From contig JAGYJZ010000003.1 of assembly GCA_018401875.1 (NCBI GenBank), positions 1 through 64,000 of the forward strand: DNA of 64,000 nucleotides, read 5' to 3'. Of this stretch, positions 7,108 to 61,417 are shown piece after piece. Below the pieces are notes generated by a model. That model was given only the letters and a program-made list of their open reading frames with translations. It searched no databases and had not been told where the DNA came from. Positions within the stretch are counted from its first letter, which is position 1. Each line of letters begins with the position of its first letter. The stretch comes from Salibacteraceae bacterium (GTDB taxonomy: Bacteria; Bacteroidota; Bacteroidia; Flavobacteriales_G; Salibacteraceae). A program made the position numbers and the translations under genes.

Positions 7108-7161
7108 ACCGAAGTTCTAAAAATCAAAAAAGGCGGCTCATATGAGCCGCCTTTTTTATTT
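5335..7161 (+). repeat. Long direct repeat, copy 1
   Basis: 1,827 bp matching 8129-9955 at a constant offset of 2,794 with no indels seen. It covers the nidogen-like domain, later SprB repeats, sorting domain, stop codon and terminator. Identity is patchy: almost perfect at about 5335-5925 and from 6597 (fully identical by eye from 6916 to 7161), but clearly lower around 6385-6595. Confidence 0.95.
7125..7160 (+). terminator. Rho-independent terminator after first surface-protein gene
   Basis: A perfect 20-base palindrome (7132-7151, GGCGGCTCAT and its complement) flanked by A6 on the left and T6 on the right, 25 bases after the stop codon. The symmetric flanks would let it act in both directions. 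Confidence 0.9.
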
Positions 7162-7366
7162 CAAGGAGTCAGAATAAAGACGTTATTCAACGAAAATATC
7201 AGCGACCAAACAAACCATTGTTTTTCGATTAAACGTTACATTAATTCCATGAATACAATAATAACGGGAATTAGACATTAACATTTTATTAAGCGTTATT
7301 CTTAATTCAGTATTATTGTCTGTTTTATTTTAAAGCAATACAGTTAAATCTTTAATCAATTATCTA

Positions 7367-47604: not shown

Positions 47605-48414
47605 TCAATGCAATGCCAGTACTGGTTTTTCTAGTCTTTCGGCTAAATTTTTTGATATGCTGGGATTTAATGCGCGTTTAAACCAAGGAGCCTTTCGCGG
47701 TATGGTCACTACCAAATCAAAGTCATTTTTTCGCGCATAATTCTGTAAAATAGTCGAGATTTCATCGCCCTCCACCACATCAAAGTCGTGATCGATATGC
47801 TCCAATGAGTTATGCATGTTGTATGCGTTTTCGACCTTTTCCAGCTCGATTTTATCTTCATCTTCTGTCACTGTGACGATGGTCAGTTTGCTGTTGTGTT
47901 CTTTGAGCAATGAAAGAACAAACTGCTGAATAATGTGCGTGTCATCTTGTTTTAGGTCAACGGTAAGAAGCACTTTATTGAGATCAGTAAATTGATAGCT
48001 TTCAGGCACTACAATGACGGGCGTGCGCGCTTCTTGCAAGGCGCTTATAGCTGCGCTTCCCATTATAAATCGCGTTAATGATGACGCGCCTTTGTTACCC
48101 ATTACAATCACATCAATTTCTTCTTTCACTGCAAACTGAGAAATGGCTTTGTTCGGATCGCCATAAATAGACTCCAGTGAAAGCTTCAATTCAGGATGCG
48201 ACTCAAGCAATCGTTCGCGTTCTTCGAGAAGCGAGTCGTTGGAGGCTTCGGCTAAAATATCGCGTAATGAAACCATTGAAGTTACAGAGGCTCTTGGCTC
48301 TTCGTATACATTGAGTAATACGAAGTTGTTCTGCAGCCCGAACATTGCTATGGCATATTCAGCAGCATTTCGTGAGCTGTTTGAAAAGTCTGTTGGAATT
48401 AATATGTTTCTCAT
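47605..48414 (-). CDS. Universal stress protein, tandem Usp domains
   Basis: A 269-residue cytoplasmic protein with two UspA-type folds (about 1-138 and 145-269). The first opens with NILIPTDFSNSSRNAAEYAI and has the ATP-binding pattern VIVMGNKGASSLTRFIMGSAAISALQEARTPVIVVPE (G-2x-G-9x-G type). The second is degenerate, lacking that Gly pattern. It follows its paralogue after 7 bases and shares its promoter, so both should respond to the same signal. Usp pairs commonly rise under low oxygen or stationary phase; the FNR-like box upstream agrees with this. Confidence 0.92.
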   Translation of the reverse strand: MRNILIPTDFSNSSRNAAEYAIAMFGLQNNFVLLNVYEEPRASVTSMVSLRDILAEASNDSLLEERERLLESHPELKLSLESIYGDPNKAISQFAVKEEIDVIVMGNKGASSLTRFIMGSAAISALQEARTPVIVVPESYQFTDLNKVLLTVDLKQDDTHIIQQFVLSLLKEHNSKLTIVTVTEDEDKIELEKVENAYNMHNSLEHIDHDFDVVEGDEISTILQNYARKNDFDLVVTIPRKAPWFKRALNPSISKNLAERLEKPVLALH

Positions 48415-48421
48415 ACTAAAG

Positions 48422-49288
48422 TCATATTAAATCTGAAATAGAAGATTCTTTCTTGTATTCTTTTATGCGTACAGACAGCACTGGAATATCGGAGTGATTC
48501 ACTACGCCCTCGGTCTGACTTCCATAGACAAACCTTGACAAACCAGTTCTTCCATGGGTTTCCATGGCAATCATATCAGCACCAATGCGTTCTGATGCTG
48601 CTAAAATTCCTTCATGAATGGTTCTTTCATTATAAATGTGAACGGTGTAGTTTTCCAATTTCCACTCTTCTAAAAACTCGTTGATCAATTTTTCAGAGTA
48701 AGGCGTGCTTTCAAAATGATCTGGGGTAACCACCTTCACAAGGTGCACATGTGCGCCAAATGCTTTAACAAATGAAAATAGTCTTCCAAAATTCTGCTTC
48801 GCTTCTCCTAGAAAATTGGAGGCAAAGACTACATTTTTTGGAGCGAAATTTTCCGCTTTATGCTTTACTGTCAGCACGGGACATTCAGCCAAACGAACAA
48901 CTTTTTCAGTATTTGACCCAATGAACACTTCATGTGCACCTGAATCACCATGAGAACCCATTACGATGAGGTCAATCCCATGTTCTTCAGCCTGCTTTGC
49001 AATGGTGCCATACACACCATCAAACTGAAGCACTTCTACAGCATTAACGCCTTCGAGAAATGGTTTTTTGAACAGTTCGCCAAAACGCTTTTTTACCAAT
49101 TTCATCCAAAAAATACCCTCAGCGGCATCCGAATAAGTTTGAAACGAATCATTTCTGTCGTAAACGGGGATATCCATTACGTGAAGGATATAAAGACGAG
49201 CATCCATCTTCTTAGCGAGCGATGCGGCAACTTCAACCGCGTGTTCTGCGCACTCGCTGAAATCTGTAGGGACTAAAATTTTTTTCAT
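48422..49288 (-). CDS. Universal stress protein, tandem Usp domains
   Basis: A 288-residue protein with two UspA-type folds. The first (about 1-150) opens KKILVPTDFSECAEHAVEVAA and ends with the nucleotide-binding motif IVMGSHGDSGAHEVFIGSNTEKVVRLAECPVLTVK. The second (about 155-280) ends with AMETHGRTGLSRFVYGSQTEGVVNHSDIPVLSV. Both motifs look complete, so both halves could bind ATP. It is the first gene of the usp-usp operon and carries an FNR-like box with a -7 element upstream, giving an mRNA leader of about 75 bases. Confidence 0.93.
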   Translation of the reverse strand: MKKILVPTDFSECAEHAVEVAASLAKKMDARLYILHVMDIPVYDRNDSFQTYSDAAEGIFWMKLVKKRFGELFKKPFLEGVNAVEVLQFDGVYGTIAKQAEEHGIDLIVMGSHGDSGAHEVFIGSNTEKVVRLAECPVLTVKHKAENFAPKNVVFASNFLGEAKQNFGRLFSFVKAFGAHVHLVKVVTPDHFESTPYSEKLINEFLEEWKLENYTVHIYNERTIHEGILAASERIGADMIAMETHGRTGLSRFVYGSQTEGVVNHSDIPVLSVRIKEYKKESSISDLI

Positions 49289-49420: not shown

Positions 49421-49434
49421 ATGATAATCGTCAG
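49421..49434. promoter_or_regulatory. FNR-like box upstream of the usp operon
   Basis: Minus-strand CTGACGATTATCAT, i.e. CTGAY-N4-ATCAK, close to the FNR consensus TTGAT-N4-ATCAA with the outer T replaced by C. The centre is at about -62 if the -7 element at 49369-49376 is used. Confidence 0.55.
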
Positions 49435-49446
49435 GAAAGATCTGCT

Positions 49447-50517
49447 TTATAAACCACCCGAGCTTATACGTTCGAGTTTTTGGGCATTTTCGACTACAAT
49501 CGTTTTGCCCTCGTTCGAAATCAACCCTTCATTTTTAAAATCGGAGAGCGTGCGAATCAGCGATTCAGTGGCAATGCCTGCATAACCAGCCAGCTCTTCA
49601 CGCGAGATCGTGAGCTCTATTCTGCCGGACGAATCGTTTCCATATCTTTCATACAAATTCTTAACCACCGTGGCTACACGCTCGCGCACATTGCCATATG
49701 CGAGTTTTAACAAACGCTCTTCTTGTTGCAATACATTCTTAGAGAGAATTTTAATGAAGTTATTGGATACTTCCCTGTTTGAATAGATCAATTTTCGAAA
49801 GTCTTCGATCGGAATCATGGCGATTTCTGAATCTTCAATGGCAGTGGCCTCTTCATTGAACGCAGTGTTTTCTAACAATGCTAAATAGCCCAAAAACTCA
49901 CCTCCACCGCACAATTGCGTAATAAACTCTTTGCCGTAATCGCTGCTTTTTGAGAGTTTCACCTTTCCATTCTTGATGTAATACAGCGCGTGAGGATATT
50001 CGCCTTCGCGGTATATGGTGTCTTTCTTTTTAAACGATTTGGTATTGCGTTCATTGATTAAATCGTCAATAGAAAGCTCTTCTTGAACGCCTCCCATAAA
50101 CTTCATCACATCGCTGGCATTATCGGCAGTAGCTGGCGCTTTCAGCGCCTCTGATTTTTTAAATCTTAGTTCGATTGCGTCAAGCAAGTCTGTTTCATCA
50201 AATGGTTTGGTGAGGTAGTCATCAGCACCCATATTCATGCCTTTTCTAAAATCACCACGTTCGGCCTTTGCCGTAAGAAAGATAAAGGGAATGGCAGAGG
50301 TCTTTGGGTTTTTGGTGAGTATATGCAACACACCATAGCCGTCTAGTTCGGGCATCATAATGTCGCAAATAATCAAATCATAATTTCCTTCATTGGCCTT
50401 TGTCACACCTGTTTTTCCGTTTTCGGCAGTGGCCACTTTATATCCAGCCAATTCAAGAATTTCGGCTGTATTCTCGCGCACTCCTTCGTTATCTTCAATC
50501 AGTAATATCTGCTTCAT
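49447..50517 (-). CDS. Response regulator with receiver fused to Crp/FNR-type DNA-binding protein
   Basis: A 356-residue fusion. Residues 1-125 are a receiver domain: acidic pocket IEDN (Glu8, Asp9), phospho-acceptor Asp52 in CDIMMPELDG, and LTKPFDETD. A linker is followed by a cyclic-nucleotide-binding fold (about 150-270, SFKKKDTIYREGEYPHALYYIKNGKVKL, CGGGEFLGYLALLE) and an FNR-type helix-turn-helix (about 295-345, ISREELAGYAGIATESLIRTLSDFKNEG). In the recognition helix the Glu and Arg that read TGA in FNR are kept, but Ile stands where FNR has Ser212. No N-terminal Cys cluster exists, so oxygen sensing would come from phosphorylation. The gene starts 23 bases inside the kinase gene. In effect it is FixJ's receiver joined to FixK. 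Confidence 0.93.
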   Translation of the reverse strand: MKQILLIEDNEGVRENTAEILELAGYKVATAENGKTGVTKANEGNYDLIICDIMMPELDGYGVLHILTKNPKTSAIPFIFLTAKAERGDFRKGMNMGADDYLTKPFDETDLLDAIELRFKKSEALKAPATADNASDVMKFMGGVQEELSIDDLINERNTKSFKKKDTIYREGEYPHALYYIKNGKVKLSKSSDYGKEFITQLCGGGEFLGYLALLENTAFNEEATAIEDSEIAMIPIEDFRKLIYSNREVSNNFIKILSKNVLQQEERLLKLAYGNVRERVATVVKNLYERYGNDSSGRIELTISREELAGYAGIATESLIRTLSDFKNEGLISNEGKTIVVENAQKLERISSGGL

Positions 50518-52042
50518 TTTTATGGTGGTTTGGTATAATTACGGTAAAGGTAGTGCCTTCATCAGGAACACTTTCAAAGGTAATCGTGCCTTTGAGCAAC
50601 TGAAGATACCTGCTCACAATGTTTAATCCGAGTCCTGTTCCTTCAATATTCACAGCATTTTTGGCCCTAAAGAAGCTGCTAAACATGTTTTCTTGATCTT
50701 CATAAGGAATGCCGATGCCTTGGTCTTTCACTTTAATGGTAAGCGAATCATCTTCCATACTCGATGAAAGCCGAATCGTAGAGTCATTTGATGAATATTT
50801 AATGGCATTGCTCAACAAGTTAGAGCACATAATCTGCAGCATATTTTGGTCTGTAGTCATCATTAGCTCACCTTGGTGTTCATAGTTGATGATCTGTTTA
50901 TCCTTGGCCATTTGTTTGTGTTGGTCAACGAGCTCTTCGAGCGTTGTTTTCACATCGAGCTGCTCCATGGCTAAATTGATCTTTCCAGCCTCTACTTTTT
51001 CGAGTGACAAAAAGTCGTTCAATAGATTTGTAAGGTGCCTCACCGAAGACTTGATGCGTTTATAATGTTTCGGCTTATTCTCTGCTATGCCCGCTGCGTC
51101 ATACTTTTCGAGCAAAGCTAATGAGCTCAATACTGTGCTGAGTGGCGTTCTAAACTCGTGCGAAGCCATGCTTACAAACCTTGATTTCAATTCATTCAAC
51201 AGTTTTTCTTTTGATAGCGCCTCTTTCGTAGTTTCTTCAGCAAGTTTGCGTTCGGTAATGTTTTGCTCCACTAAAAGCACGCGATCAATTTCACCTTCAT
51301 CGTTATTCAAGCCAACTGTACTGACCAAATAATACTGGTTTTGATGTCGGATTTCATGCTTTTCATTTTTTCCTTGCAGCGCATTCTCCAGTATTTCGTG
51401 CATCAATGAGCTCAATTCCTCAGGCAATCGATCGAGGTAGTATTTTCCGATTAATTTTTCGCTGGTAATCCCTCGTTTAAACAGTTCTGCACCTTCTGTG
51501 AATACATAATTAAATTCAGAATCGAAGACATTGATTGTGCCGTTTGGAAAATTTTGAGCGATTAATTTATACAGTTTTTGCGACTCATCGAGTTGTTTGG
51601 TGCGCTGTAAAACCCTTTTTTCGAGGTGCTTATTCAACAGTTTGATTTCTGCCTCTTGCTCTTTTCGTTTGGTCACATCCATGATGAGGGCCATGGCTTT
51701 CGGCTCGCCATTGTCGATAAAATGATTCAAGCTTATTTCTAATGGAAATGAAGACCCATCTTTACGCACTCCGATCAGGTCAAACCCGATTCCCATGGAT
51801 CTTTTTCGAGGACTTTCCATAAAGCTTTCGCGGTGTTGCACATGCTTAGTCTTAAGGTGCTTGGGCAATAAGTCATCAACCGTCAAGCTGAGCAATTCTT
51901 CTTTATCGTAGCCAAACAATTCAGATGCTCGGGGATTTACCAATTCAATTTGCCCGTACTTATTGGCCACGATCAAACCTTCCGTAGCCGTTTGAAACAT
52001 CAATTGGTAGAGGTTCTTATCCTGCTCCTTTGCGTCTTTCAT
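50495..52042 (-). CDS. PAS-domain sensor histidine kinase with FixL-like first PAS
   Basis: A 515-residue soluble kinase without transmembrane helices. Order: PAS1 (about 10-128), coiled coil (125-155), PAS2 (about 158-265), HisKA with phospho-acceptor His295 (SMASHEFRTPLST), and a HATPase domain with NLLSNAIKYSS, KDQGIGIPYED and GTGLGLNIVSRYL. PAS1 aligns gap-free with the FixL haem domain, with His67 (KTKH) in the place of the FixL proximal His200, the GIG and RKDGSSFP segments in register, but Phe at the Arg220 position. That His also occurs in non-haem PAS proteins, so haem binding is a hypothesis. It overlaps the REC-FNR gene by 23 bases and the TerB-like gene by 4, so the three are one operon. 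Confidence 0.92.
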   Translation of the reverse strand: MKDAKEQDKNLYQLMFQTATEGLIVANKYGQIELVNPRASELFGYDKEELLSLTVDDLLPKHLKTKHVQHRESFMESPRKRSMGIGFDLIGVRKDGSSFPLEISLNHFIDNGEPKAMALIMDVTKRKEQEAEIKLLNKHLEKRVLQRTKQLDESQKLYKLIAQNFPNGTINVFDSEFNYVFTEGAELFKRGITSEKLIGKYYLDRLPEELSSLMHEILENALQGKNEKHEIRHQNQYYLVSTVGLNNDEGEIDRVLLVEQNITERKLAEETTKEALSKEKLLNELKSRFVSMASHEFRTPLSTVLSSLALLEKYDAAGIAENKPKHYKRIKSSVRHLTNLLNDFLSLEKVEAGKINLAMEQLDVKTTLEELVDQHKQMAKDKQIINYEHQGELMMTTDQNMLQIMCSNLLSNAIKYSSNDSTIRLSSSMEDDSLTIKVKDQGIGIPYEDQENMFSSFFRAKNAVNIEGTGLGLNIVSRYLQLLKGTITFESVPDEGTTFTVIIPNHHKNEADITD

Positions 52043-52410
52043 AGTTGATGTAGGTCTGCCTTGAATCGTTTCACCAATGCTTTTTCCTCATCTGTAACAG
52101 GAGTTGCCGAATGAACGATGTCCTGAATAAGAAACAGGAATTTTTCCTTCAGCGATTCATCGAGGTAATTTGAACCGAGACGTATGTATTTCATGCCATT
52201 TTCATAGCTGATTTCTTCGTAATGTTTGTTTTTGATGATAATAGAGAAGATAATTTCTGCTATGTCAAAATTAGCTTCTACTTCACTCGACCATTTTTTG
52301 ATGAGCTTTTGGAGATCTTTTCGTTCGCTCATTTGAATTTCACCATCTGCATTGGCGGCAACAAATGCAATGATGCCAAGGCCATAAAACGCGTGTTGTT
52401 GTGCTTCCAT
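52039..52410 (-). CDS. TerB-like helical protein, first gene of the kinase operon
   Basis: A 123-residue all-helical cytoplasmic protein. FVAANADGEIQMSERKDLQKLIKKW (about 17-41) is the acidic EF-like helix pair characteristic of TerB/tellurite-resistance-like proteins, and TPVTDEEKALVKRFK near the C-terminus mirrors it. TerB folds are thought to bind divalent metal ions. It overlaps the kinase start by 4 bases (ATGA), so it is translated with the two-component system and may modulate it; that is inference from position. A weak -7 element lies just upstream (52424-52431). Confidence 0.72.
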   Translation of the reverse strand: MEAQQHAFYGLGIIAFVAANADGEIQMSERKDLQKLIKKWSSEVEANFDIAEIIFSIIIKNKHYEEISYENGMKYIRLGSNYLDESLKEKFLFLIQDIVHSATPVTDEEKALVKRFKADLHQL

Positions 52411-52514: not shown

Positions 52515-53861
52515 CTAGACGGTCATGCTAAAAATCTGCGTTGATGGAGCCTTGATCATTAATCGCTGATCAAATGCCATGCAGATATTTCGGACGTAAG
52601 GTTTACCCGAATTGGTTACGCGAATTTCATCTTTGTTTACGGTCAGTAAATTGTCTGATTCGAGTTCCTTAAGAAGCAACAAACTATTCGTGACAGCACT
52701 GCTTTTCACCTCGTTAAGGTCTGCTTTAAAGTGGCACATGATGTCGAGAATCAATTTTCGAATCATCAGGTCTTCTTCAGACAAGATATGACCTCTGAAT
52801 ATCGGAAACTCACCTCTTAATACAACTTCCATGTACCGCTCAACCACTTTTATATTTTGCGCAAAACCTGTCCAAGAGTCGCCAATAGCAGAAACCCCCA
52901 AGCCGATCATTAATTTACTTGATTGCGTGGTGTAACCCATAAAATTACGATGCATATTACCCGCTCTGAAGGCGCGTGTGAGCTCTTCTTTAGGAAGTGC
53001 AAAATGATCCATTCCTATTTCGCTATAACCAGCAGCGATAAGCATTTCTTTGCCCAACACATACATGGCGTGTTTGCTTTTTGCCTCTGGCAAGTCTTTC
53101 TCAGTAAACGATCGTTGACCTGGTTTAACCCACGGCACATGCGCATAGCTGTAAAACGCAATCCGGTCTGGCCTCAAGAGATTTACTAAATCAATGGTAT
53201 TTTCAATGCTGCTGGTGGTTTGGTGTGGCAAGCCATACACCAAGTCGTAATTTACCGACTTATACCCTAAACCTCGAGCCCAATCTGTCACCCTTTTAAC
53301 TTGGTCGAATGATTGAACGCGATTGATGGTTTTTTGAACTACGGGATCAAAATCTTGTATGCCTAAGCTCAATCGTTTGAAGCCTAATTCGCTCAGTGTT
53401 TTGAGGTGATCAAACGTGGTAGAGTTTGGGTTCGCCTCAAAACTCAGTTCAGCATGTTGGTCGAAATGACTCAGTTCTTTAATGCCATGAATGAGCTCAC
53501 TTAAGTGCTCAGCGCTAAAAAACGTGGGCGTTCCACCGCCTAGGTGCAACTCTTTGATGATCGGTTTTTTACCAAAAAGATCTGTGTACAATTTCCATTC
53601 GGCAAGAAGCGCTTCGATGTATGGTTTTTCTACTGCATGGTTCACTGTAATGCGTGTGGTGCAGCCGCAAAACGTGCACAAACTTTCGCAATAGGGAAGA
53701 TGAATGTAAATGCTAACCCCGTCCGTATCGTTATATAAATCAAAGGATTCTTTCACCAACTTTTGCCATTGGGTGGCCGTTGGCGGACTATCCCAATAAG
53801 GCACCGTAGGGTAGCTCGTGTACCTAGGGCCTGGCACATTGTATTTTTCTATTAGCTGCAT
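52515..53861 (-). CDS. hemN: Oxygen-independent coproporphyrinogen III oxidase
   Basis: Radical SAM enzyme that decarboxylates coproporphyrinogen III without oxygen, needed for haem in low-oxygen life. The 448 residues include the cluster motif C-x3-C-x2-C at Cys58, Cys62 and Cys65 with the HemN-typical fourth Cys67 (CGC), and the N-terminal GPRYTSYPTVPYW that separates true HemN from HemW-like proteins. LHLGGGTPTFF and SYNYDLVYGLP-like segments are intact. An FNR-like box and a -7 element lie upstream with the same geometry as the usp and cco promoters, matching the usual FNR-type control of hemN. Confidence 0.95.
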   Translation of the reverse strand: MQLIEKYNVPGPRYTSYPTVPYWDSPPTATQWQKLVKESFDLYNDTDGVSIYIHLPYCESLCTFCGCTTRITVNHAVEKPYIEALLAEWKLYTDLFGKKPIIKELHLGGGTPTFFSAEHLSELIHGIKELSHFDQHAELSFEANPNSTTFDHLKTLSELGFKRLSLGIQDFDPVVQKTINRVQSFDQVKRVTDWARGLGYKSVNYDLVYGLPHQTTSSIENTIDLVNLLRPDRIAFYSYAHVPWVKPGQRSFTEKDLPEAKSKHAMYVLGKEMLIAAGYSEIGMDHFALPKEELTRAFRAGNMHRNFMGYTTQSSKLMIGLGVSAIGDSWTGFAQNIKVVERYMEVVLRGEFPIFRGHILSEEDLMIRKLILDIMCHFKADLNEVKSSAVTNSLLLLKELESDNLLTVNKDEIRVTNSGKPYVRNICMAFDQRLMIKAPSTQIFSMTV

Positions 53862-53920: not shown

Positions 53921-53934
53921 ATGATTTATGTCAG
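53921..53934. promoter_or_regulatory. FNR-like box upstream of hemN
   Basis: Minus-strand CTGACATAAATCAT, the CTGAY-N4-ATCAK form, 60 bases upstream of the hemN start. The rest of the 285-base gap to 54146 shows only a small GC hairpin at 54009-54024 and the antitoxin promoter. Confidence 0.55.
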
Positions 53935-54146: not shown

Positions 54147-54404
54147 ATGGCCATGGATGCAAAAGTTACACTGAGTTTTGACCAAGAGGTAATTGAGAAA
54201 GCCAAGAAGTTTGCAGAAAAGCACAACATCAGCTTGTCGCGATTAACCGAACTGTTATTGCGCAGAACCACAGAGACAACCTATCCCAATTTGGAAGACA
54301 TTCCAATTTCCGCGTGGGTTACCGAGTTAGCTGAAGGCAAAGCCGAATATAAGAAACGCGGCAAGAAAAAGATGAAGGACGAGTACTTTGATTCGCGCAA
54401 ATGA
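54147..54404 (+). CDS. DUF6364-type antitoxin of PIN toxin module
   Basis: An 85-residue protein with a ribbon-helix-helix-like N-terminus (AKVTLSFDQEVIEKAKKFAEKHNISLSRLTELLLRR, about 4-40), followed by a flexible C-terminal part (ISAWVTELAEGKAEYKKRGKKKMKDEYFD) that typically covers the toxin. Such proteins bind DNA as dimers and repress their own operon. Met3 is an alternative start. The toxin gene overlaps its stop by 4 bases (ATGA). The module lies between hemN and the cbb3 operon but has its own promoter. Confidence 0.82.
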   Translation: MAMDAKVTLSFDQEVIEKAKKFAEKHNISLSRLTELLLRRTTETTYPNLEDIPISAWVTELAEGKAEYKKRGKKKMKDEYFDSRK

Positions 54405-54820
54405 AACTTTTTCTCGATGCGAATCTGATCGTGGCGGTATTGAACAAAGAGTGCCCGCTCTACGAATATGCCGCGAAGGTGCTCAGCCTGGCCGACCGAC
54501 CCAACACCACATTGTTTATCTCACCAGTGAGCGTAGCCATTGCCTTCTATTTTGCTTCTAAAAAATCTGGCCAAGTGCAGGCGAAACGAAAACTCAGCAT
54601 TCTTCTCGACCACGTTACGGTGAGTACAGTCAATCACGATATGACACACGCGGCCATTCGAGAAGCTAAAGTGCAAGACGTGGAAGACGGAATTCAGTTT
54701 TTCAGTGCTGTGCACCACGACTGCGATTACATCTTAACTGAAAATGTAGAGGACTTTCATTTCAGTACCATCCCAGTGATGAAGGCAGATGCGTTTTTGA
54801 TGACGGTCGGGTTGAGTTGA
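54401..54820 (+). CDS. PIN-domain ribonuclease toxin
   Basis: A 139-residue PIN-fold protein, likely an RNA-cleaving toxin inhibited by the preceding protein. It has the first acidic residue Asp6 in LFLDANLIV, Asp96 (with Glu95) in VEDGIQFFSAV and the family's DYILTENVEDF, where Glu or Asn replaces the usual Asp. The second canonical Glu is not found in SPVSVAIAFYFASK; Bacteroidota PIN proteins paired with DUF6364 commonly lack it, so this may be normal. Convergent with the TauE/SafE gene, 16 bases away. Confidence 0.82.
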   Translation: MKLFLDANLIVAVLNKECPLYEYAAKVLSLADRPNTTLFISPVSVAIAFYFASKKSGQVQAKRKLSILLDHVTVSTVNHDMTHAAIREAKVQDVEDGIQFFSAVHHDCDYILTENVEDFHFSTIPVMKADAFLMTVGLS

Positions 54821-54836: not shown

Positions 54837-55523
54837 CTACCTACACTCCACAACCTCCCTATCTTGACCAACCATTTGAGGACTCAAGTACGGAATTCCT
54901 AGATTCATTCCCCGCACAATAAGCAGGCAGCCCATTACAAACACGGTGATAGGAATGAGTTTTCGTAGCTTATTTCTTAAACACAGGCTCAGCTTACTAC
55001 CGAAGGCAGTAAGGACCAAAAGCATGGGTAAGGTGCCCGCTCCAAAAGCGAGCATAAACAGAGCGCCATCCCACGGGGTAAACGTGTTGGCCGCACCAGC
55101 AACCGCCAAATAGACAAGTCCGCACGGCAACAAACCATTGCCCACCCCCGTCAAAAAGCGCAGTTGATTTTTACCGAATCCTGCACGGTGAATCCACCCT
55201 GTAAACTTGATCGCTACGCGACTGAGCTTGCCTTCAATCGCATTAAAACGTTTGCTCAGCGGAATGATCAATACCGAAAGCACCATCAAAATACCAATTG
55301 CGATGCTAAAACTTTGCTGCCAACCCACAATGCTGAACGTATTTCCTAAAGCACCGGCCACGGCACCGAATAGCGCATAAGTCAAGAGCCTGCCGCTGTG
55401 GTGGAGCACTTCATTCAAAGGCTTTGTTCGGCCTTGATTTACGGTGATGAGAATAGGCCCACACATTCCTGCACAGTGCAAACTGCCGAGCATTCCAATC
55501 ATTATGGCCGCCCATAAATACAT
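54837..55523 (-). CDS. TauE/SafE-like membrane protein of the cbb3 operon
   Basis: A 228-residue inner-membrane protein with about six helices. The N-terminal helix carries GSLHCAGMCGPILI (about 13-26), a His-Cys-Met-Cys motif suited to copper, and a second helix has GNGLLPCGLVYLA. This is the sulfite-exporter TauE/SafE (DsbD-like) subfamily that closes many cbb3 oxidase operons and is thought to help in copper supply to the oxidase. It starts 1 base after the fixH stop codon. The copper P-type ATPase ccoI is not seen nearby. Confidence 0.88.
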   Translation of the reverse strand: MYLWAAIMIGMLGSLHCAGMCGPILITVNQGRTKPLNEVLHHSGRLLTYALFGAVAGALGNTFSIVGWQQSFSIAIGILMVLSVLIIPLSKRFNAIEGKLSRVAIKFTGWIHRAGFGKNQLRFLTGVGNGLLPCGLVYLAVAGAANTFTPWDGALFMLAFGAGTLPMLLVLTAFGSKLSLCLRNKLRKLIPITVFVMGCLLIVRGMNLGIPYLSPQMVGQDREVVECR

Positions 55524-55524
55524 A

Positions 55525-55959
55525 TTAGATCACAATATCTTTAGCCAAGTAATAGGCCTTATCCTCGGTGTTCCAGGAGAATTTTACTTGGTACCTTCCT
55601 TGCTTTAACACTTGAATCGGAACCCTCACTTTGCCTGAATCATTCAATTGCAGTGGCACTTTGATATCCATCGCCTTGTCTGAAGGACGAAAAAAATGGA
55701 TTTCACCGCTTGTGATGGAGTTGGTGACTTCTGAAGGAAACCCAAACTCGATGAAGCCCTCAGGGCGTGAAATTGTAACTTCATCCGCGAGGTGCTCTGC
55801 GTTTGCCGATTCGTCAATACGACCTTGAAACGCCACTTCTTGCGCGTAGTAATCTTCTGACACCAGGTCGATGTTTTGATTGTAGCTGCGGTAAACAAAC
55901 GAAAGAATGTACACCACAAACAATGCAAAACCTATTGTAACTCCGTGTCCCCAGTTCAT
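55525..55959 (-). CDS. fixH: FixH/CcoH-family cbb3 oxidase assembly protein
   Basis: A 144-residue protein with one N-terminal transmembrane helix (MNWGHGVTIGFALFVVYILSFVYRS) and a periplasmic domain (about 35-144) rich in beta strands. DLVSEDYYAQEVAFQGRIDESANA is the FixH pattern. The start ATG at 55959 is preferred: the longer frame to 56022 adds 21 residues encoded inside a repeat-rich intergenic region. FixH is required for stable cbb3 oxidase. It is separated from ccoG by 266 bases holding two repeats, so a processed or separate transcript is possible. Confidence 0.9.
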   Translation of the reverse strand: MNWGHGVTIGFALFVVYILSFVYRSYNQNIDLVSEDYYAQEVAFQGRIDESANAEHLADEVTISRPEGFIEFGFPSEVTNSITSGEIHFFRPSDKAMDIKVPLQLNDSGKVRVPIQVLKQGRYQVKFSWNTEDKAYYLAKDIVI

Positions 55960-55993
55960 GTTGATTTGTAATTCATTATTTATAATTCTGATA

Positions 55994-56041
55994 GCCCGTC
56001 TTGCTGAGGTTTTGCGAAGCAAAAGTCTCGAAGCATCGGGC
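55994..56041. repeat. REP-like palindromic element between ccoG and fixH
   Basis: A 48-base imperfect inverted repeat: GCCCG at one end, CGGGC at the other, and a central hairpin TTTTGC-GAA-GCAAAA. Such elements are typical non-coding dispersed repeats; no second copy was noticed in this window. Confidence 0.45.
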
Positions 56042-56183
56042 GGTTTTAGACGTATTGTCTTTATTAATTGATCCGCCAGTCTATTTCGAGATGTTCATTT
56101 CTCAACGAACCCACAGTGTGACTAGCTCTCATATGTGTTTATTTTTCATTTTCACGTTCTTTTCTCTCTAAAGTAGACAAATA

Positions 56184-56215
56184 ACCCACCCCCTAACCCC
56201 CTCCCAAGAGGGGAA
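56184..56215. repeat. C-rich intergenic element with small hairpin
   Basis: A run of C blocks (ACCCACCCCCTAACCCC...) ends in hairpin CCCTC-CCAA-GAGGG, 11 bases from the ccoG stop. It may act as a weak terminator or belong to a dispersed family; only one copy is in the window. Confidence 0.35.
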
Positions 56216-56225
56216 CAGGATCGTT

Positions 56226-57647
56226 CTACAAAGCTGGACCCATAAAGTTAGTCTTCACCGTTTCGATCAATTTATCGTCATCATACACCCCAATTTTGAT
56301 GTTGGTCTTGACTCCGGCCAGCATTTCCTTTTCTAAGATCACAAACATAGCGCCTTCGAAAACGCCTTGTGGTTCGATGCGCGTTAAGTCGCCAACCATC
56401 TGAATTTGACCATCCTTCTCCTCCAGGCTGAATCGCACATCAAATCCTTCATTGGTTTTATTGATCACTTTAAAATTGTAAAGATTGCTCACCTTATCTT
56501 CTTCGAGTTTTTGATACATCATTCCCGAAGTTCTCAAGATGGTGGCTTCCACGTCAGTTCTGCTCAACAAAAGCGTGGTGATTATTCCGACCAATATTAT
56601 CAACACTAGAAGGTATCCAATAATGCGTGTGGTCAATTTAAACGGAACACCTTTGGTGATGCCCTCTTCCGATTTATACCCTATCAATCCTTTTTTAAGG
56701 TCCACTGACTCCATCATGAAGTCACACGCATCCATGCATGCGGTGCAATTCACACATTCGAGCTGAGTGCCATTGCGGATGTCGATGCCCGTTGGACACA
56801 CGTGCACGCAATGTCCGCAATCGATGCAATCGCCCTTGCCCAATGCGCTTCGGTCTTCATTCTTCTTAAATTTTGATCGGCCTTCTTCCCGTTCACCGCG
56901 TTTGTAGTCATAGGCCACAACGAGTGAATTTCGATCGAGCAATACACCTTGAAGCCTTCCGTAAGGGCAAATAGTGGTGCACACTTGCTCCCTCAATTTC
57001 GCAAAAACGCCATAAAAAGCTCCGCTAAAAACAATCATGGCAATGAAGCCACCCATGTGATCGTTTAGTGGCTCTGTTACGATGTTATAGAGCTCTTCTG
57101 TTCCAATGATATAGGCCAAAAAGGTGTTTCCGATAAGGAAACTGATCACTACAAAAATGACATGCTTCAGGGTTTTCTTGAAAATTTTCTCTTTGTTCCA
57201 TGGCGACCGATCAAGCTTCATTTGCTGCTTGAAATCACCTTCAATAGCGTATTCGATTTTGCGAAAAACCATCTCCATAAAAATGGTTTGCGGGCATACC
57301 CAACCGCAAAAAAGACGTCCAAACACCACAGTAAATAGAATAACGAATACAATGCCAGTGATCATTGCAAACACGAAAAGATGAAAGTCTTGAGGCCAAA
57401 AAATATTTCCGAAAATGATGAATTTTCGTTCGAGGATGTTGAGCATCAACAGTGGCTCGCCACCAATTCGGATGAATGGCCCGCCAAACAACATCGCCAA
57501 CAATACGATGCTCACAATGGTGCGGTAGTTTGTGAACTTGCCGCTCGGCTTTTTAGGGTAAACCCAAATGCGTTTACCCTTTGCGTCTACCGTTGAAATA
57601 TGATCTCTAAACGACTCTTTGTTTGGCTCTTCGTGTGTCATTTTCAA
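56226..57647 (-). CDS. ccoG: CcoG/FixG polyferredoxin, cbb3 oxidase copper assembly
   Basis: A 473-residue membrane protein with five helices and a cytoplasmic double [4Fe-4S] domain. Cluster motifs are CGWVCPQTIF (about 110-119), CIDCGHCVHVCPTGI and CVNCTACMDACD (about 270-310). The C-terminal part (about 370-473) is an Ig-like periplasmic domain. CcoG reduces copper for insertion into the CcoN binuclear centre. It begins 17 bases after ccoP, in the order ccoS-NO-Q-P-G. Confidence 0.95.
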   Translation of the reverse strand: MKMTHEEPNKESFRDHISTVDAKGKRIWVYPKKPSGKFTNYRTIVSIVLLAMLFGGPFIRIGGEPLLMLNILERKFIIFGNIFWPQDFHLFVFAMITGIVFVILFTVVFGRLFCGWVCPQTIFMEMVFRKIEYAIEGDFKQQMKLDRSPWNKEKIFKKTLKHVIFVVISFLIGNTFLAYIIGTEELYNIVTEPLNDHMGGFIAMIVFSGAFYGVFAKLREQVCTTICPYGRLQGVLLDRNSLVVAYDYKRGEREEGRSKFKKNEDRSALGKGDCIDCGHCVHVCPTGIDIRNGTQLECVNCTACMDACDFMMESVDLKKGLIGYKSEEGITKGVPFKLTTRIIGYLLVLIILVGIITTLLLSRTDVEATILRTSGMMYQKLEEDKVSNLYNFKVINKTNEGFDVRFSLEEKDGQIQMVGDLTRIEPQGVFEGAMFVILEKEMLAGVKTNIKIGVYDDDKLIETVKTNFMGPAL

Positions 57648-57664
57648 TCCCGATTAAACGGGTT

Positions 57665-58828
57665 TTATTCATTCATGGTAAACTGCTCCGCGGCTGCATC
57701 AACAGAATCAGCTGCTGCAGTGTCAGCTTCAACAGGCTCTACTTTCGCTTCCTCCCAAAAATCACCCTGAGGCTCTTTTGGATTCTCAGGATTCGTGCCT
57801 GCCAATGATTTAATGAAGCTAGAGACTTGTTGAATTTGCGTTGGGTTGAGCTGTGCTTGCCAACTCACCATGCCTTTTTCTGACACCCCATACTTAATTA
57901 TTTTAAAAATATCTGTTACACTTCCACCGTGAATCCAGTAGTCATCGGTTAAATTCGGCCCAACACCACCGGGCTGACTGCCCCCATTTTCGCCATGGCA
58001 AGGTGCGCAATATAGCTTAAAGGTCTTACCTCCAGCAGCAATGTCGCTGGCAGCGGTGAGTAATTCAACATTGCTTTCATCCACAACGTTTTCTTGGGTT
58101 GTCACAAAGGCTGCTTTAGCGGCTTCGGCTTCGAGCATTTCGTTGTTGTATTCGGCAATTTGTAAATCGCCATTGCCTGTGATGTGGTAATTAAAAATGT
58201 AGATGACACCAAACACTATCGAAGCGTAGAATCCGTAAACCCACCAAGGCGGTAGGTTATTGTCTAATTCGTGAATTCCATCGTATTCGTGGTCCATCAA
58301 CACGTCTTCTTCTTCATCCACAGGAACGGCATCTGTCAACAGCACGTTGATCTTGTCCATGAAGGTTTCGGGCACTTTGCCTTCTTCATCCTTCATCAGC
58401 AGTTTAAACAAGCCATTGAGTTTTGATGCGAGGTAAAGGAACGCGAAAAAGAGAAAGAGGTTGAGTGTGATTAGCGCAATAAAGGCGGTGTCGTTCAACG
58501 TAACTAAGGCATCAAAATTTCCGTCTTGAGCAAATGCCTGCGACCCGGTAAACATCAGCAATAGCGTAATGATTCCAGCGCCTTTTCCCCATCGCATTTG
58601 CCAAACTTCTTTGTTTGAAACGATGCTCTTGATCAATCCAGCAATCACCAGAATGGCGATCAATTGAAAGATGGCAATCACGGCAAGAATTATGAAGAGT
58701 CCTTCATCACTCACGCCAGTTCCGTTGACCAAAGCTGTGGAAGCCGTGGCGTATTTCGGTGCTAAGAAGGCAAGCAAGCCAAATGCGGCCAGTGCCCATG
58801 ATTTGTTGTTGAATTTTAAACTTTTCAT
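57665..58828 (-). CDS. ccoP: cbb3-type cytochrome c oxidase subunit III (CcoP), mono-haem
   Basis: A 387-residue protein. An N-terminal signal or membrane segment and helices (about 14-35, 43-70, 85-100 and 115-140) are followed by a long linker and one periplasmic cytochrome c domain with a single haem motif CAPCH (Cys274-His278) and a later Met ligand (probably in KGMVSWQAQL). Proteobacterial CcoP has two haems; the one-haem form is usual in Bacteroidota. Extra N-terminal membrane segments suggest a fusion with CcoQ-like or unrelated membrane parts. The tail is Ala/Asp/Glu-rich. It lies 10 bases after ccoQ and 17 bases before ccoG. Confidence 0.93.
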   Translation of the reverse strand: MKSLKFNNKSWALAAFGLLAFLAPKYATASTALVNGTGVSDEGLFIILAVIAIFQLIAILVIAGLIKSIVSNKEVWQMRWGKGAGIITLLLMFTGSQAFAQDGNFDALVTLNDTAFIALITLNLFLFFAFLYLASKLNGLFKLLMKDEEGKVPETFMDKINVLLTDAVPVDEEEDVLMDHEYDGIHELDNNLPPWWVYGFYASIVFGVIYIFNYHITGNGDLQIAEYNNEMLEAEAAKAAFVTTQENVVDESNVELLTAASDIAAGGKTFKLYCAPCHGENGGSQPGGVGPNLTDDYWIHGGSVTDIFKIIKYGVSEKGMVSWQAQLNPTQIQQVSSFIKSLAGTNPENPKEPQGDFWEEAKVEPVEADTAAADSVDAAAEQFTMNE

Positions 58829-58838
58829 ACGTGTAGGC

Positions 58839-59012
58839 TTATTCGTTTTCGGTTAGTGGTAAATTCTCTAGTTCTTTCACATAGGACTTTCTCAGAAGAA
58901 AGACATACGCGAAGAGTCCAAGGAAAAACGAGAAGAAAATGATGAATGAAATCACCGGATAGATCGCGACTCCATCAATACTTTGCATGTGTTTTGCTAC
59001 AAATTTTAACAT
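58839..59012 (-). CDS. ccoQ: cbb3-type oxidase small subunit CcoQ
   Basis: A 57-residue protein with one hydrophobic helix (about 18-40, YPVISFIIFFSFFLGLFAYVF) and a charged tail (RKSYVKELENLPLTENE), the size and layout of CcoQ. It has short intergenic gaps on both sides (12 bases from ccoNO, 10 from ccoP) and in-frame start and stop, so it is a real gene in the operon. CcoQ stabilises CcoP in the complex. Confidence 0.82.
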   Translation of the reverse strand: MLKFVAKHMQSIDGVAIYPVISFIIFFSFFLGLFAYVFLLRKSYVKELENLPLTENE

Positions 59013-59024
59013 GGTTCTCGTTTT

Positions 59025-61169
59025 TTAAGGATTAGTAGTTACGGCTTTATCGTCACTTTCAATGTCTGTTCCGAGGCGTTGCAAGTAGGCTATTAAAGCA
59101 ATTATTTCGCGGTTCTGAGAAACTTCAATTCCAGACGCCATAAGGTCATCAGCAATTTCTGCCGATTGCGCTTCAAGGTCCATCATGGCTTGTTTTTCAT
59201 ATCCTTCTGGATAAGGAACCCCCAATGTTCTCATGGCGTTTATTTTAGCTTCCAAATCACTCACATCGAGCTCTTGATCAATCATCCAAGGATATGGAGG
59301 CATGATTGAACCTGGCGACATCGTGCGCGGGTCGAGCATGTGGTTGTAGTGCCAACTGTTTGGTTTGCGCAATTTAGCGCCGCCTTCACGCGCTAAGTCT
59401 GGACCGGTTCGTTTTGATCCCCAAAGGAATGGGTGATCGTACACAAATTCACCAGCTTTTGAATATTCGCCATAGCGCTCTGTTTCGCTTCTAAACGGAC
59501 GAATCATTTGTGAGTGGCAGTTGTTGCACCCTTCGCGGATGTACAAGTCGCGGCCTTCCAATTCAAGTGGCGTGTAAGGCTTAACGCTGCTGATGGTAGG
59601 AATGTTAGACTTCACCAAACCTGTAGGTATAATCTCGATCAACCCACCGATTGATACTGCCACAATGGCGAGCACCATAAGCATAAGCGGCTTACGCTCG
59701 ATGGCTCGGTGCCAGTATTCGCCTGAATGTGGTGTGAAGGTTGGAGAAAGCGCTGGTGCTTGCGCTTCTTCGTTGGCGATGAATGATCCGCTTTTGGCTG
59801 TCATCATCAAGTTGTAAACCATCACCAACACACCGATGATGTAAATCAATCCACCAAATGCGCGCATGGCATACATTGGGATAAGCTGCGTTACTGTTTC
59901 CAAGAAGTTTGGATAAGCCAAGAATCCATCTGGAGTGAATTCTTTCCACATTAAACTTTGGGTGAATCCAGCCCAATAAAGCGGAATGGCGTAGAAAATG
60001 ATTCCCAGTGTGCCGATCCAAAAGTGGAAGTTGGCCAGTTTCATTGAATAAAGTTTCGTGTCCCACATTTTTGGGATGAGGAAGTAAAGCATACCGAAGG
60101 TTAAGAAACCATTCCACCCAAGGCCGCCAATGTGCACGTGGGCAATTGTCCAGTCGGTGAAGTGGCTGATGGCGTTCACGCTTTTCAGCGACATCATCGG
60201 TCCTTCAAACGTTGTCATACCATAGCACGTGATGGCTACCACCATAAACTTCAATACTGCACTATCGCGCACTTTGTCCCAAGCACCGCGCAGCGTTAAA
60301 AGACCGTTGAGCATACCGCCCCACGATGGTGCAATAAGCATGATCGAAAATACTACTCCGAGTGATTGAGCCCAGTCTGGCAATGAAGTGTAAAGCAAGT
60401 GGTGAGGACCTGCCCAGATGTAAATAAAGATCAACGCCCAAAAGTGAATGATGGAAAGGCGGTAAGAATACACCGGACGATTGGCGGCTTTTGGCACGAA
60501 GTAGTACATCAATCCGAGGTAAGGCGTAGTCAAGAAAAACGCTACTGCGTTGTGACCATACCACCATTGCACGAGCGCGTCTTGCACACCGGCATACCAG
60601 CTGTAGCTCTTCATGAATGAAACAGGAAGTTCAAAAGAATTGAAGATGTGAAGAATGGCAACAGTGACGAATGTGGCGATGTAAAACCAAATAGCCACGT
60701 AAATGTGGCGCTCTCTTCGCTTCACCAGTGTCATGATCATGTTTAAACCAAACACTACCCAAATGAGGGCAATGGCAATGTCGATCGGCCATTCTAATTC
60801 AGCGTATTCTTTACTTGTGGTGTAGCCTAATGGAAGGGTTATTACTGCCGAGAGAATGATCAGTTGCCAGCCCCAAAAGTTGATGTTGGAGAGCATATCG
60901 CTCCACATCCTGGTTTTCAGCAAGCGTTGTAAAGAGTAATAAACCCCAGCGAAAATTCCATTGCCAACGAAAGCGAAGATCACTGCGTTGGTATGCAGTG
61001 GACGAATCCGCCCGAAGGTGATCCATTGCAATCCGGCATTGAGCTCGGGAAAAACGAGTTGAAGTGCTGCGGTTAGACCAACGAGCATTCCAATTACACC
61101 AAAGACAACCGTTGCAATTAAAAACTTGCGTACGATGCCATTGTCATAGCTAAACTTTTCCATTTCCAT
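59025..61169 (-). CDS. ccoNO: cbb3-type cytochrome c oxidase, fused CcoN-CcoO subunits
   Basis: A 714-residue fusion of the catalytic subunit I and the haem c subunit II. The CcoN part (about 1-460) has twelve helices: His59 (PLHTN) for low-spin haem, the cross-linked pair His206/Tyr203 (WWYGHNAV), His256-His257 (AGPHHLLY) for CuB, and His344/His346 (AHVHIGG). The CcoO part (about 490-714) has one haem c motif CNNCH (548-552). All ligands are present, so a working high-affinity oxidase is expected. The ccoN/ccoO fusion is typical of Bacteroidota. Start may be Met1 or Met3; it overlaps the end of ccoS by about 50 bases. Confidence 0.96.
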   Translation of the reverse strand: MEMEKFSYDNGIVRKFLIATVVFGVIGMLVGLTAALQLVFPELNAGLQWITFGRIRPLHTNAVIFAFVGNGIFAGVYYSLQRLLKTRMWSDMLSNINFWGWQLIILSAVITLPLGYTTSKEYAELEWPIDIAIALIWVVFGLNMIMTLVKRRERHIYVAIWFYIATFVTVAILHIFNSFELPVSFMKSYSWYAGVQDALVQWWYGHNAVAFFLTTPYLGLMYYFVPKAANRPVYSYRLSIIHFWALIFIYIWAGPHHLLYTSLPDWAQSLGVVFSIMLIAPSWGGMLNGLLTLRGAWDKVRDSAVLKFMVVAITCYGMTTFEGPMMSLKSVNAISHFTDWTIAHVHIGGLGWNGFLTFGMLYFLIPKMWDTKLYSMKLANFHFWIGTLGIIFYAIPLYWAGFTQSLMWKEFTPDGFLAYPNFLETVTQLIPMYAMRAFGGLIYIIGVLVMVYNLMMTAKSGSFIANEEAQAPALSPTFTPHSGEYWHRAIERKPLMLMVLAIVAVSIGGLIEIIPTGLVKSNIPTISSVKPYTPLELEGRDLYIREGCNNCHSQMIRPFRSETERYGEYSKAGEFVYDHPFLWGSKRTGPDLAREGGAKLRKPNSWHYNHMLDPRTMSPGSIMPPYPWMIDQELDVSDLEAKINAMRTLGVPYPEGYEKQAMMDLEAQSAEIADDLMASGIEVSQNREIIALIAYLQRLGTDIESDDKAVTTNP

Positions 61170-61327
61170 AGGTTACGATTTTTGGTTTCATGATCATCAA
61201 ATAGGATGCGCACTGAAGGCGAGTAATCATCATCGTATTGATTGGTCTTTATGGCCCAAATAAAAGCGCCAAGAAAACCCAAGGCAATAATTAAGCTGAC
61301 AACTATGTGCAATATCATAACACTCAT
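61118..61327 (-). CDS. ccoS: cbb3-type oxidase assembly protein CcoS
   Basis: A 69-residue membrane protein. MSVMILHIVVSLIIALGFLGAFIWAIKTNQYDDDYSPSVRILFDD is the complete CcoS family pattern, so the start is 61327 rather than the longer frame to 61453. A non-family tail of about 25 residues continues into the ccoNO reading frame, so the genes overlap by 52 bases. CcoS is needed to insert haem and copper into CcoN. It heads the operon and carries the FNR-like box. Confidence 0.92.
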   Translation of the reverse strand: MSVMILHIVVSLIIALGFLGAFIWAIKTNQYDDDYSPSVRILFDDHETKNRNLWKWKSLAMTMASYASF

Positions 61328-61403: not shown

Positions 61404-61417
61404 CTGATAAAAATCAG
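61404..61417. promoter_or_regulatory. FNR-like box upstream of the cco operon
   Basis: CTGAT-AAAA-ATCAG, a perfect inverted repeat extended by one more C/G pair (61403-61418). It is the most symmetric of the three boxes and differs from the FNR consensus only at the outer bases. Confidence 0.6.

Follow-up and report, generated by a model that had tools for sequence, protein, structure and literature searches.

We analyzed a 64,000-nucleotide (nt) stretch of contig JAGYJZ010000003.1 from a Salibacteraceae bacterium (hereafter the window), in which a histidine kinase gene overlaps by 23 nt a gene that fuses a receiver (REC) domain to a Crp/FNR-type DNA-binding protein (hereafter REC-FNR). The two proteins probably form a circuit in which a haem-PAS kinase drives a phosphorylation-gated REC-FNR that would activate low-oxygen genes. 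This proposal is built on features read directly in the sequences, namely the architecture, the key residues, the gene linkage, the conservation of FNR-like boxes, the loss of the Cys residues of related FNR proteins and a common recognition helix. The haem, the signal, the phosphotransfer, the DNA binding and the direction of control are what we infer from them. In such a two-component circuit, responding to low oxygen or to a reduced cytoplasm, the first PAS domain of the kinase (PAS1) would hold haem via His67, with Met83 perhaps as sixth ligand, and the haem state would govern autophosphorylation of His295. The phosphoryl group would pass from His295 to Asp52 of REC-FNR, encoded by the overlapping gene, and phosphorylated REC-FNR would bind MTGAYN4RTCAK boxes and activate the cbb3, hemN and usp genes. 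REC-FNR would be a derivative or sister of the Cys-bearing stand-alone FNRs reading the same box, its receiver replacing the gating presumed for their iron-sulfur (Fe-S) cluster.

The kinase and REC-FNR pair

The regulator (356 amino acids; 49447..50517, minus strand, as for all genes and domains of this section) carries Response_reg (residues 4-116), cNMP_binding (160-244) and HTH_Crp_2 (279-351) domains in one chain. A preliminary description of this DNA had claimed a kinase gene overlapping such a fusion, which the open reading frames (ORFs) and the Pfam domains bear out. The receiver (50170..50508; PF00072, E 5.7e-29) contains the phospho-Asp, acidic pair, Thr/Ser and Lys of response regulators: D9, D52 (codon 50362-50364) and K104 were conserved in all 110 REC-FNR sequences compared, and position 82 was T in 108 and S in two. 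Cys51, directly before Asp52 (window 50362-50367), was invariant as well (110/110). The DNA-binding part (residues 160-351; 49465..50040) combines a cNMP-binding fold with a Crp-type helix-turn-helix (HTH), as in the Crp/FNR superfamily, and its recognition helix reads ATESLIRTL. FixJ is a receiver with a LuxR/GerE-type HTH output, and the output of the fusion (cNMP_binding and HTH_Crp_2) is of another kind. The cluster Cys residues of an Fe-S FNR are absent; the window protein has only Cys51 and Cys203.

The partner kinase (515 amino acids; 50495..52042) is composed of PAS (residues 11-122), PAS_4 (172-266), HisKA (286-353) and HATPase_c (398-505) domains, the first two being PAS1 (51677..52012) and PAS2 (51245..51529). 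The predicted phospho-acceptor His295, Asp52 of the receiver, His67 of PAS1 (codon 51842-51844) and Phe87 at the position of FixL Arg220 were all found as earlier claimed.

We observed the fusion in 43 of 296 sampled Bacteroidota genomes (match threshold 1e-40; source genome included in both counts), all 43 belonging to the single class of the source genome. A scan of named genomes gave at least 574 relatives, the best 80 of which were kept as loci; with 29 loci from the 296-genome sample, the set comprised 109 loci and 106 distinct fusion sequences. A kinase gene adjoined the fusion (at most 1200 nt upstream, same strand) in 102 of the 109 loci, and one further locus (L029) failed the gap test solely through an over-long ORF call. 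The kinase/REC-FNR system is widespread in its class. The preliminary description knew of no described system of this exact form: we found no description of such a REC-FNR fusion in the PMC literature, a search outside which most subscription journals lie, and the form is not singular (43/296 genomes). The pair was also present on two short contigs of metagenome-assembled genomes labelled Alphaproteobacteria and Deltaproteobacteria (L015 and L065), which are likely misbinned Bacteroidota.

In the window, the pair sits between the hemN and cbb3 genes and two Usp genes, and the likely targets named earlier do adjoin it. These are hemN (oxygen-independent coproporphyrinogen III oxidase; 52515..53861; TIGR00538 above cut-off), the cbb3 oxidase region (54837..61327), with ccoS, a ccoNO fusion, ccoP, ccoG, a ccoH-like gene and a DsbD_2 protein, and the two Usp genes (47605..49288; Pfam). 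We named ccoS (61118-61327) by eye, and the names ccoG, ccoH and ccoS go by sequence and position, without a family match. Across the 80 named loci, hemN was found in 25, cco in 33, usp in 29 and any of the three in 55; for the 47 loci longer than 20 kb, the corresponding numbers were 19, 24, 16 and 34.

The PAS1 sensor domain

Judged from its residues, PAS1 is not a canonical FixL domain, and haem and oxygen sensing by the window kinase is likely. The gap-free alignment to the FixL haem domain, already reported in the preliminary description, was recovered with a best E of 3e-13, next to FG214 (10jx; 8e-13) and DosP/EcDos (1e-9 and weaker). Because the identities to FG214 (28%) and FixL (26%) are near-equal, our preference for FG214 rests on the ligand signature and not on score. 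The proximal His of the F-helix, which PMC10468136 names as the main determinant of haem binding for the FixL/DosP cluster, is present (His67). A structure prediction pointed the same way: the AlphaFold2 model of PAS1 had a predicted local distance difference test score (pLDDT) of 93.7, and a Foldseek search with it returned FixL first, the first 30 rows being all FixL, DosP/EcDos or FG214, with LOV domains later.

FG214 is a haem-bound PAS crystal structure solved in 2026 (10jx, PMC13060918). According to that source, its proximal ligand is His156, its main distal ligand His175 and its alternative distal ligand Met172, whose ligation to the iron is visible in a dithionite-soaked crystal. By spacing, His156, His175 and Met172 correspond to His67, Gly86 and Met83 of the window. 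PAS1 has the proximal His, a His at +3 (His70) and a Met at +16, and Gly86 stands at +19 in place of the distal His.

A PAS1-like domain was detected (above 15 bits) in 88 of the 102 partner kinases. Together with that of the window, these domains were divided by hand list into 70 of the window type (type A) and 19 canonical FixL domains (type B). The division coincides with one branch (support 100, starred) of a quick tree of few columns, which places FixL on the B side and both the window and FG214 on the A side; the row of FG214 is long and uncertain. In type B, the His and Arg220 were each present in 18 of 19 domains, and the PAS domain of one such kinase (L112) matched FixL at 1e-34. In type A, His67, Pro78, Arg81 and Met83 were each conserved in 69 of 70 domains and Arg71 in 66, and position 87, that of Arg220, was Arg in 26, Met in 21, Leu in 10 and Phe in four. 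Since 19 related loci have a canonical FixL haem PAS on the partner kinase, the family does contain a circuit from FixL to REC-FNR. To this extent the earlier view of a FixL-like sensor stands; the PAS1 of the window itself is FixL/FG214-like, falls outside the canonical group of FixL and the 19 type B domains and has FG214-like ligand residues. On the fusion tree (71 labelled rows), the type of sensor switched no fewer than six times.

FNR-like boxes and stand-alone FNR proteins

A strict scan for MTGAYNNNNRTCAK gave exactly three boxes in the window, as stated earlier, all in non-coding stretches: before usp2 (49421..49434), hemN (53921..53934) and ccoS (61404..61417), none with an assigned strand. 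Because this count alone is reachable by chance (shuffle mean 1.36, three or more in 16 of 100 shuffles), the evidential weight lies in the placement of the boxes and in their conservation in relatives. A Poisson value of 0.001 for three of the 37 boxes of the genome falling within 13.9 kb was set aside as post hoc, and a loose TTGATN4ATCAA pattern with two mismatches was too unspecific (101 matches against a shuffle mean of 68).

Sites aligned across the family gave the box MTGAYN4RTCAK, which has the core of the FNR/FixK consensus TTGATN4ATCAA and a different first base. In the loci, TGAYN4RTCA was found upstream of 15 of 31 hemN genes (0.8 expected), 9 of 15 usp1 (0.3), 8 of 16 usp2 (0.3) and 10 of 26 ccoNO (0.5), as well as 9 of 109 fusion genes; shuffled expectations ranged from 0.0 to 2.0 across the genes. 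It was absent upstream of ccoG (0/29), ccoP (0/30), ccoH (0/3) and the ORF of a 123-amino-acid protein described below (0/2), and present once upstream of DsbD_2 (1/25). Of 112 box sequences, 38 had the motif TAnnTTTG, which we take to be the Bacteroidota -7 consensus, starting precisely 30 nt downstream of the box centre; a second, lower peak (10 sequences) was at 52-53 nt. This spacing puts the boxes near -41.5 and -63.5, which are activator positions for the Crp/FNR superfamily. At 30 ± 1 nt, we counted the motif for 11 of 15 hemN, 3 of 8 usp2 and 2 of 10 ccoNO boxes, and for cco in 14 of 19 genomes without the fusion and 9 of 24 with the fusion and another FNR (mean at other offsets, 0 to 0.16 across groups).

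In the source genome (assembly 82.1% complete), 2.62 Mb contained 37 boxes, compared to six for a reversed control. Besides the three of the window, 26 lie within ORFs and eight are non-coding, according to a crude ORF choice. Five of these eight are 41 to 96 nt before Pfam-annotated genes (L207, L211, L212, L213 and L215): a heavy-metal P-type ATPase with a CcoI-like N-terminus, a Pyr_redox_2 flavoprotein, a metallo-beta-lactamase-rhodanese protein, a UPF0176 rhodanese and a Fer2 reductase. With boxes of this form, the five genes make up a candidate larger regulon in which sulfur-handling genes are represented. By eye, the flavoprotein resembles a sulfide:quinone reductase.

Stand-alone FNRs were searched at E 1e-15 with the best 10 candidates scored per genome, so some were possibly missed, and 20 were picked by hand, five of them from fusion-bearing genomes. 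All 20 share with the fusion the recognition helix E[ST]xIR and possess four invariant Cys; in the same columns of 109 fusions, Cys occurred in 0, 0, 1 and 14 sequences. These Cys (L246-L265) form a CxxC followed by two more, about 46-50 and 99-102 residues after the first. The spacing is unlike that of E. coli FNR, and the Fe-S coordination may possibly differ. One fully supported branch of a quick tree parts 91 fusions from the 20 stand-alone FNRs and thereby allows a single fusion event. Taken together, REC-FNR resembles a version, controlled by phosphorylation, of the presumed Fe-S FNR of related bacteria.

The region upstream of cco was analyzed in 37 fusion-bearing genomes and in 23 of 25 fusion-less genomes of the same class with FixO (G095 and G277 left out). 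The box was present in 35 of the 37 (2.4 expected), 26 of them with the strict form.

Alternative explanations and known systems

Several observations weigh against the circuit proposed here. The distal Arg of FixL (Arg220, in the context IIGIGR) is absent from PAS1, which reads RSMGIGF with Phe87 at that position, and no PAS1-like domain was detected in 14 of the 102 partner kinases, two of these 14 being cut by contig ends. The cco-upstream box was also present in 19 of the 23 fusion-less genomes (1.8 expected; strict form in 18). The -7-like spacing was strongest for hemN and for fusion-less genomes, weak where the fusion is the sole detected reader (2/11 at 30 nt and two at 52 nt) and absent at 30 nt from usp1 boxes (0/9). 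All three window promoters lack TAnnTTTG at the family spacing, hemN having TAGGTTTA at 34 nt. Finally, no association of the fusion with cbb3 was observed within the class, FixO being found in 38 of 43 genomes with the fusion and in 25 of 30 without. The suggested co-occurrence of the pair with cbb3 operons consequently holds for the neighbourhood (cco 33 and hemN 25 of 80 loci) and fails at the genome level: the fusion-cbb3 link is one of gene neighbourhood only. The comparison over all 296 genomes (38/43 with and 181/253 without the fusion) was discarded as uninformative.

Some of these points would suit the same circuit with another signal, in which PAS1 is without haem or has a different cofactor or ligand, or in which sensing falls to PAS2. 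Phe replaces Arg220 in the window, only 26 of 70 type A relatives have Arg there, and the 14 kinases without a detected PAS1-like domain indicate that the signal need not be common; in addition, 40% of the FixL/DosP cluster is without the His according to PMC10468136, so that the fold is not always a haem sensor. However, His67, Met83, Arg81 and Pro78, each in 69 of 70 domains, form the same signature as in the haem-bound FG214 structure, and a canonical FixL PAS is found on the same partner kinase in 19 loci. We therefore consider another signal rather unlikely. It is far less likely still, in our estimation, that phosphorylation is not the switch and that the fusion is constitutive or has another input such as Cys51 beside Asp52: this Cys is invariant, but D9, D52, K104 and T/S82 are all kept and in 102 of 109 loci the kinase gene adjoins the fusion.

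The question of which protein reads the boxes calls for the fusion-less genomes. The presence of the cco-upstream box there implies that the box predates the fusion or extends beyond it, and since stand-alone Cys-bearing FNRs occur in these genomes (at least one match in each of the 19 with the box, many near cco), a box by itself does not identify its reader. We accordingly rejected treating the box as proof of binding by the fusion. The boxes near the pair might then be those of a stand-alone FNR whose gene the 82%-complete assembly lacks, with the targets of REC-FNR elsewhere, a reading we hold to be improbable. The fusion is the sole match at 1e-15 in 14 of 43 fusion-bearing genomes (the source genome and 13 others; best 10 candidates scored), and in another, G190, all three matches are fusions. 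In G190 and the 10 fusion-only genomes with FixO, the cco-upstream TGAYN4RTCA was kept in 11 of 11, that of G249 lying within the ccoS coding sequence by our reading. Of our computational arguments for the fusion itself as reader of the box, this is the strongest, and the agreement of the recognition helices goes in the same direction.

We most likely face a rhizobial logic shortened by one transcription step, with a regulator that takes the place of a Cys-bearing FNR at the same promoters. Whether an Fe-S-gated FNR evolved into a phosphorylation-gated one with unchanged promoters, while the kinase sensor was swapped more than once between a canonical FixL and a His/Met-type haem PAS, giving one low-oxygen regulon two interchangeable oxygen-sensing chemistries, is in our view evenly balanced. 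If true, a global oxygen regulon can exchange its sensing chemistry, from Fe-S to a kinase-linked haem PAS, and retain its promoters; Bacteroidota would have an oxygen pathway of the FixL type with one transcriptional step fewer than in rhizobia, and relatives with one, the other or both readers would become directly comparable.

Other features of the window were also recorded. The first gene of the apparent operon (52039..52410, minus strand) encodes a 123-amino-acid all-helical protein (model pLDDT 87.4) and overlaps the kinase gene by 4 nt. Pfam and NCBIfam searches gave no match for it, nor did its model match a PDB structure at E 0.001 or better; relatives occurred beside the pair in five of 109 loci (upstream of the kinase in three, downstream of the fusion in two). 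Between hemN and the cbb3 region, two small ORFs (54147-54820) are toxin-antitoxin-like by eye (ribbon-helix-helix and PIN-like). In the region from about 6053 to 9897, identical box-like matches recur with a constant shift of 2794 nt (6053/8847, 7040/9834 and 7090/9884), which suggests a direct repeat.

Among known systems, FG214 resembles PAS1 in its HxxHR..Y...P..RxMG signature, proximal His, alternative distal Met and non-Arg residue (Leu) at the Arg220 position; it differs, according to PMC13060918, as a one-component HTH-PAS protein of Fimbriimonas whose main distal His175 corresponds to Gly86. NmpRSTU of Myxococcus is likewise a haem-dependent kinase system over cbb3 and hemN, but with a protoglobin sensor and an NtrC-type regulator (PMC11841059). 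The stand-alone Bacteroidota FNRs have the recognition helix and the cco-upstream box in common with the fusion, whereas they possess CxxC and two further invariant Cys, have no receiver and are presumably Fe-S-gated. In hFixL-FxkR-FixK of Rhizobium etli/leguminosarum, an alternative kinase/regulator pair also leads to an FNR-type factor, although FxkR and FixK are separate proteins there (PMC4999443). Overall, the window pair would share with rhizobial FixL-FixJ-FixK a PAS haem-type kinase, a phosphorylated regulator, an FNR-type factor without Fe-S and cbb3 and hemN as targets. It differs in its Bacteroidota host, in a PAS1 without Arg220 and in the fusion of the receiver to the FNR-type factor, because of which the FixJ transcription step would be absent.

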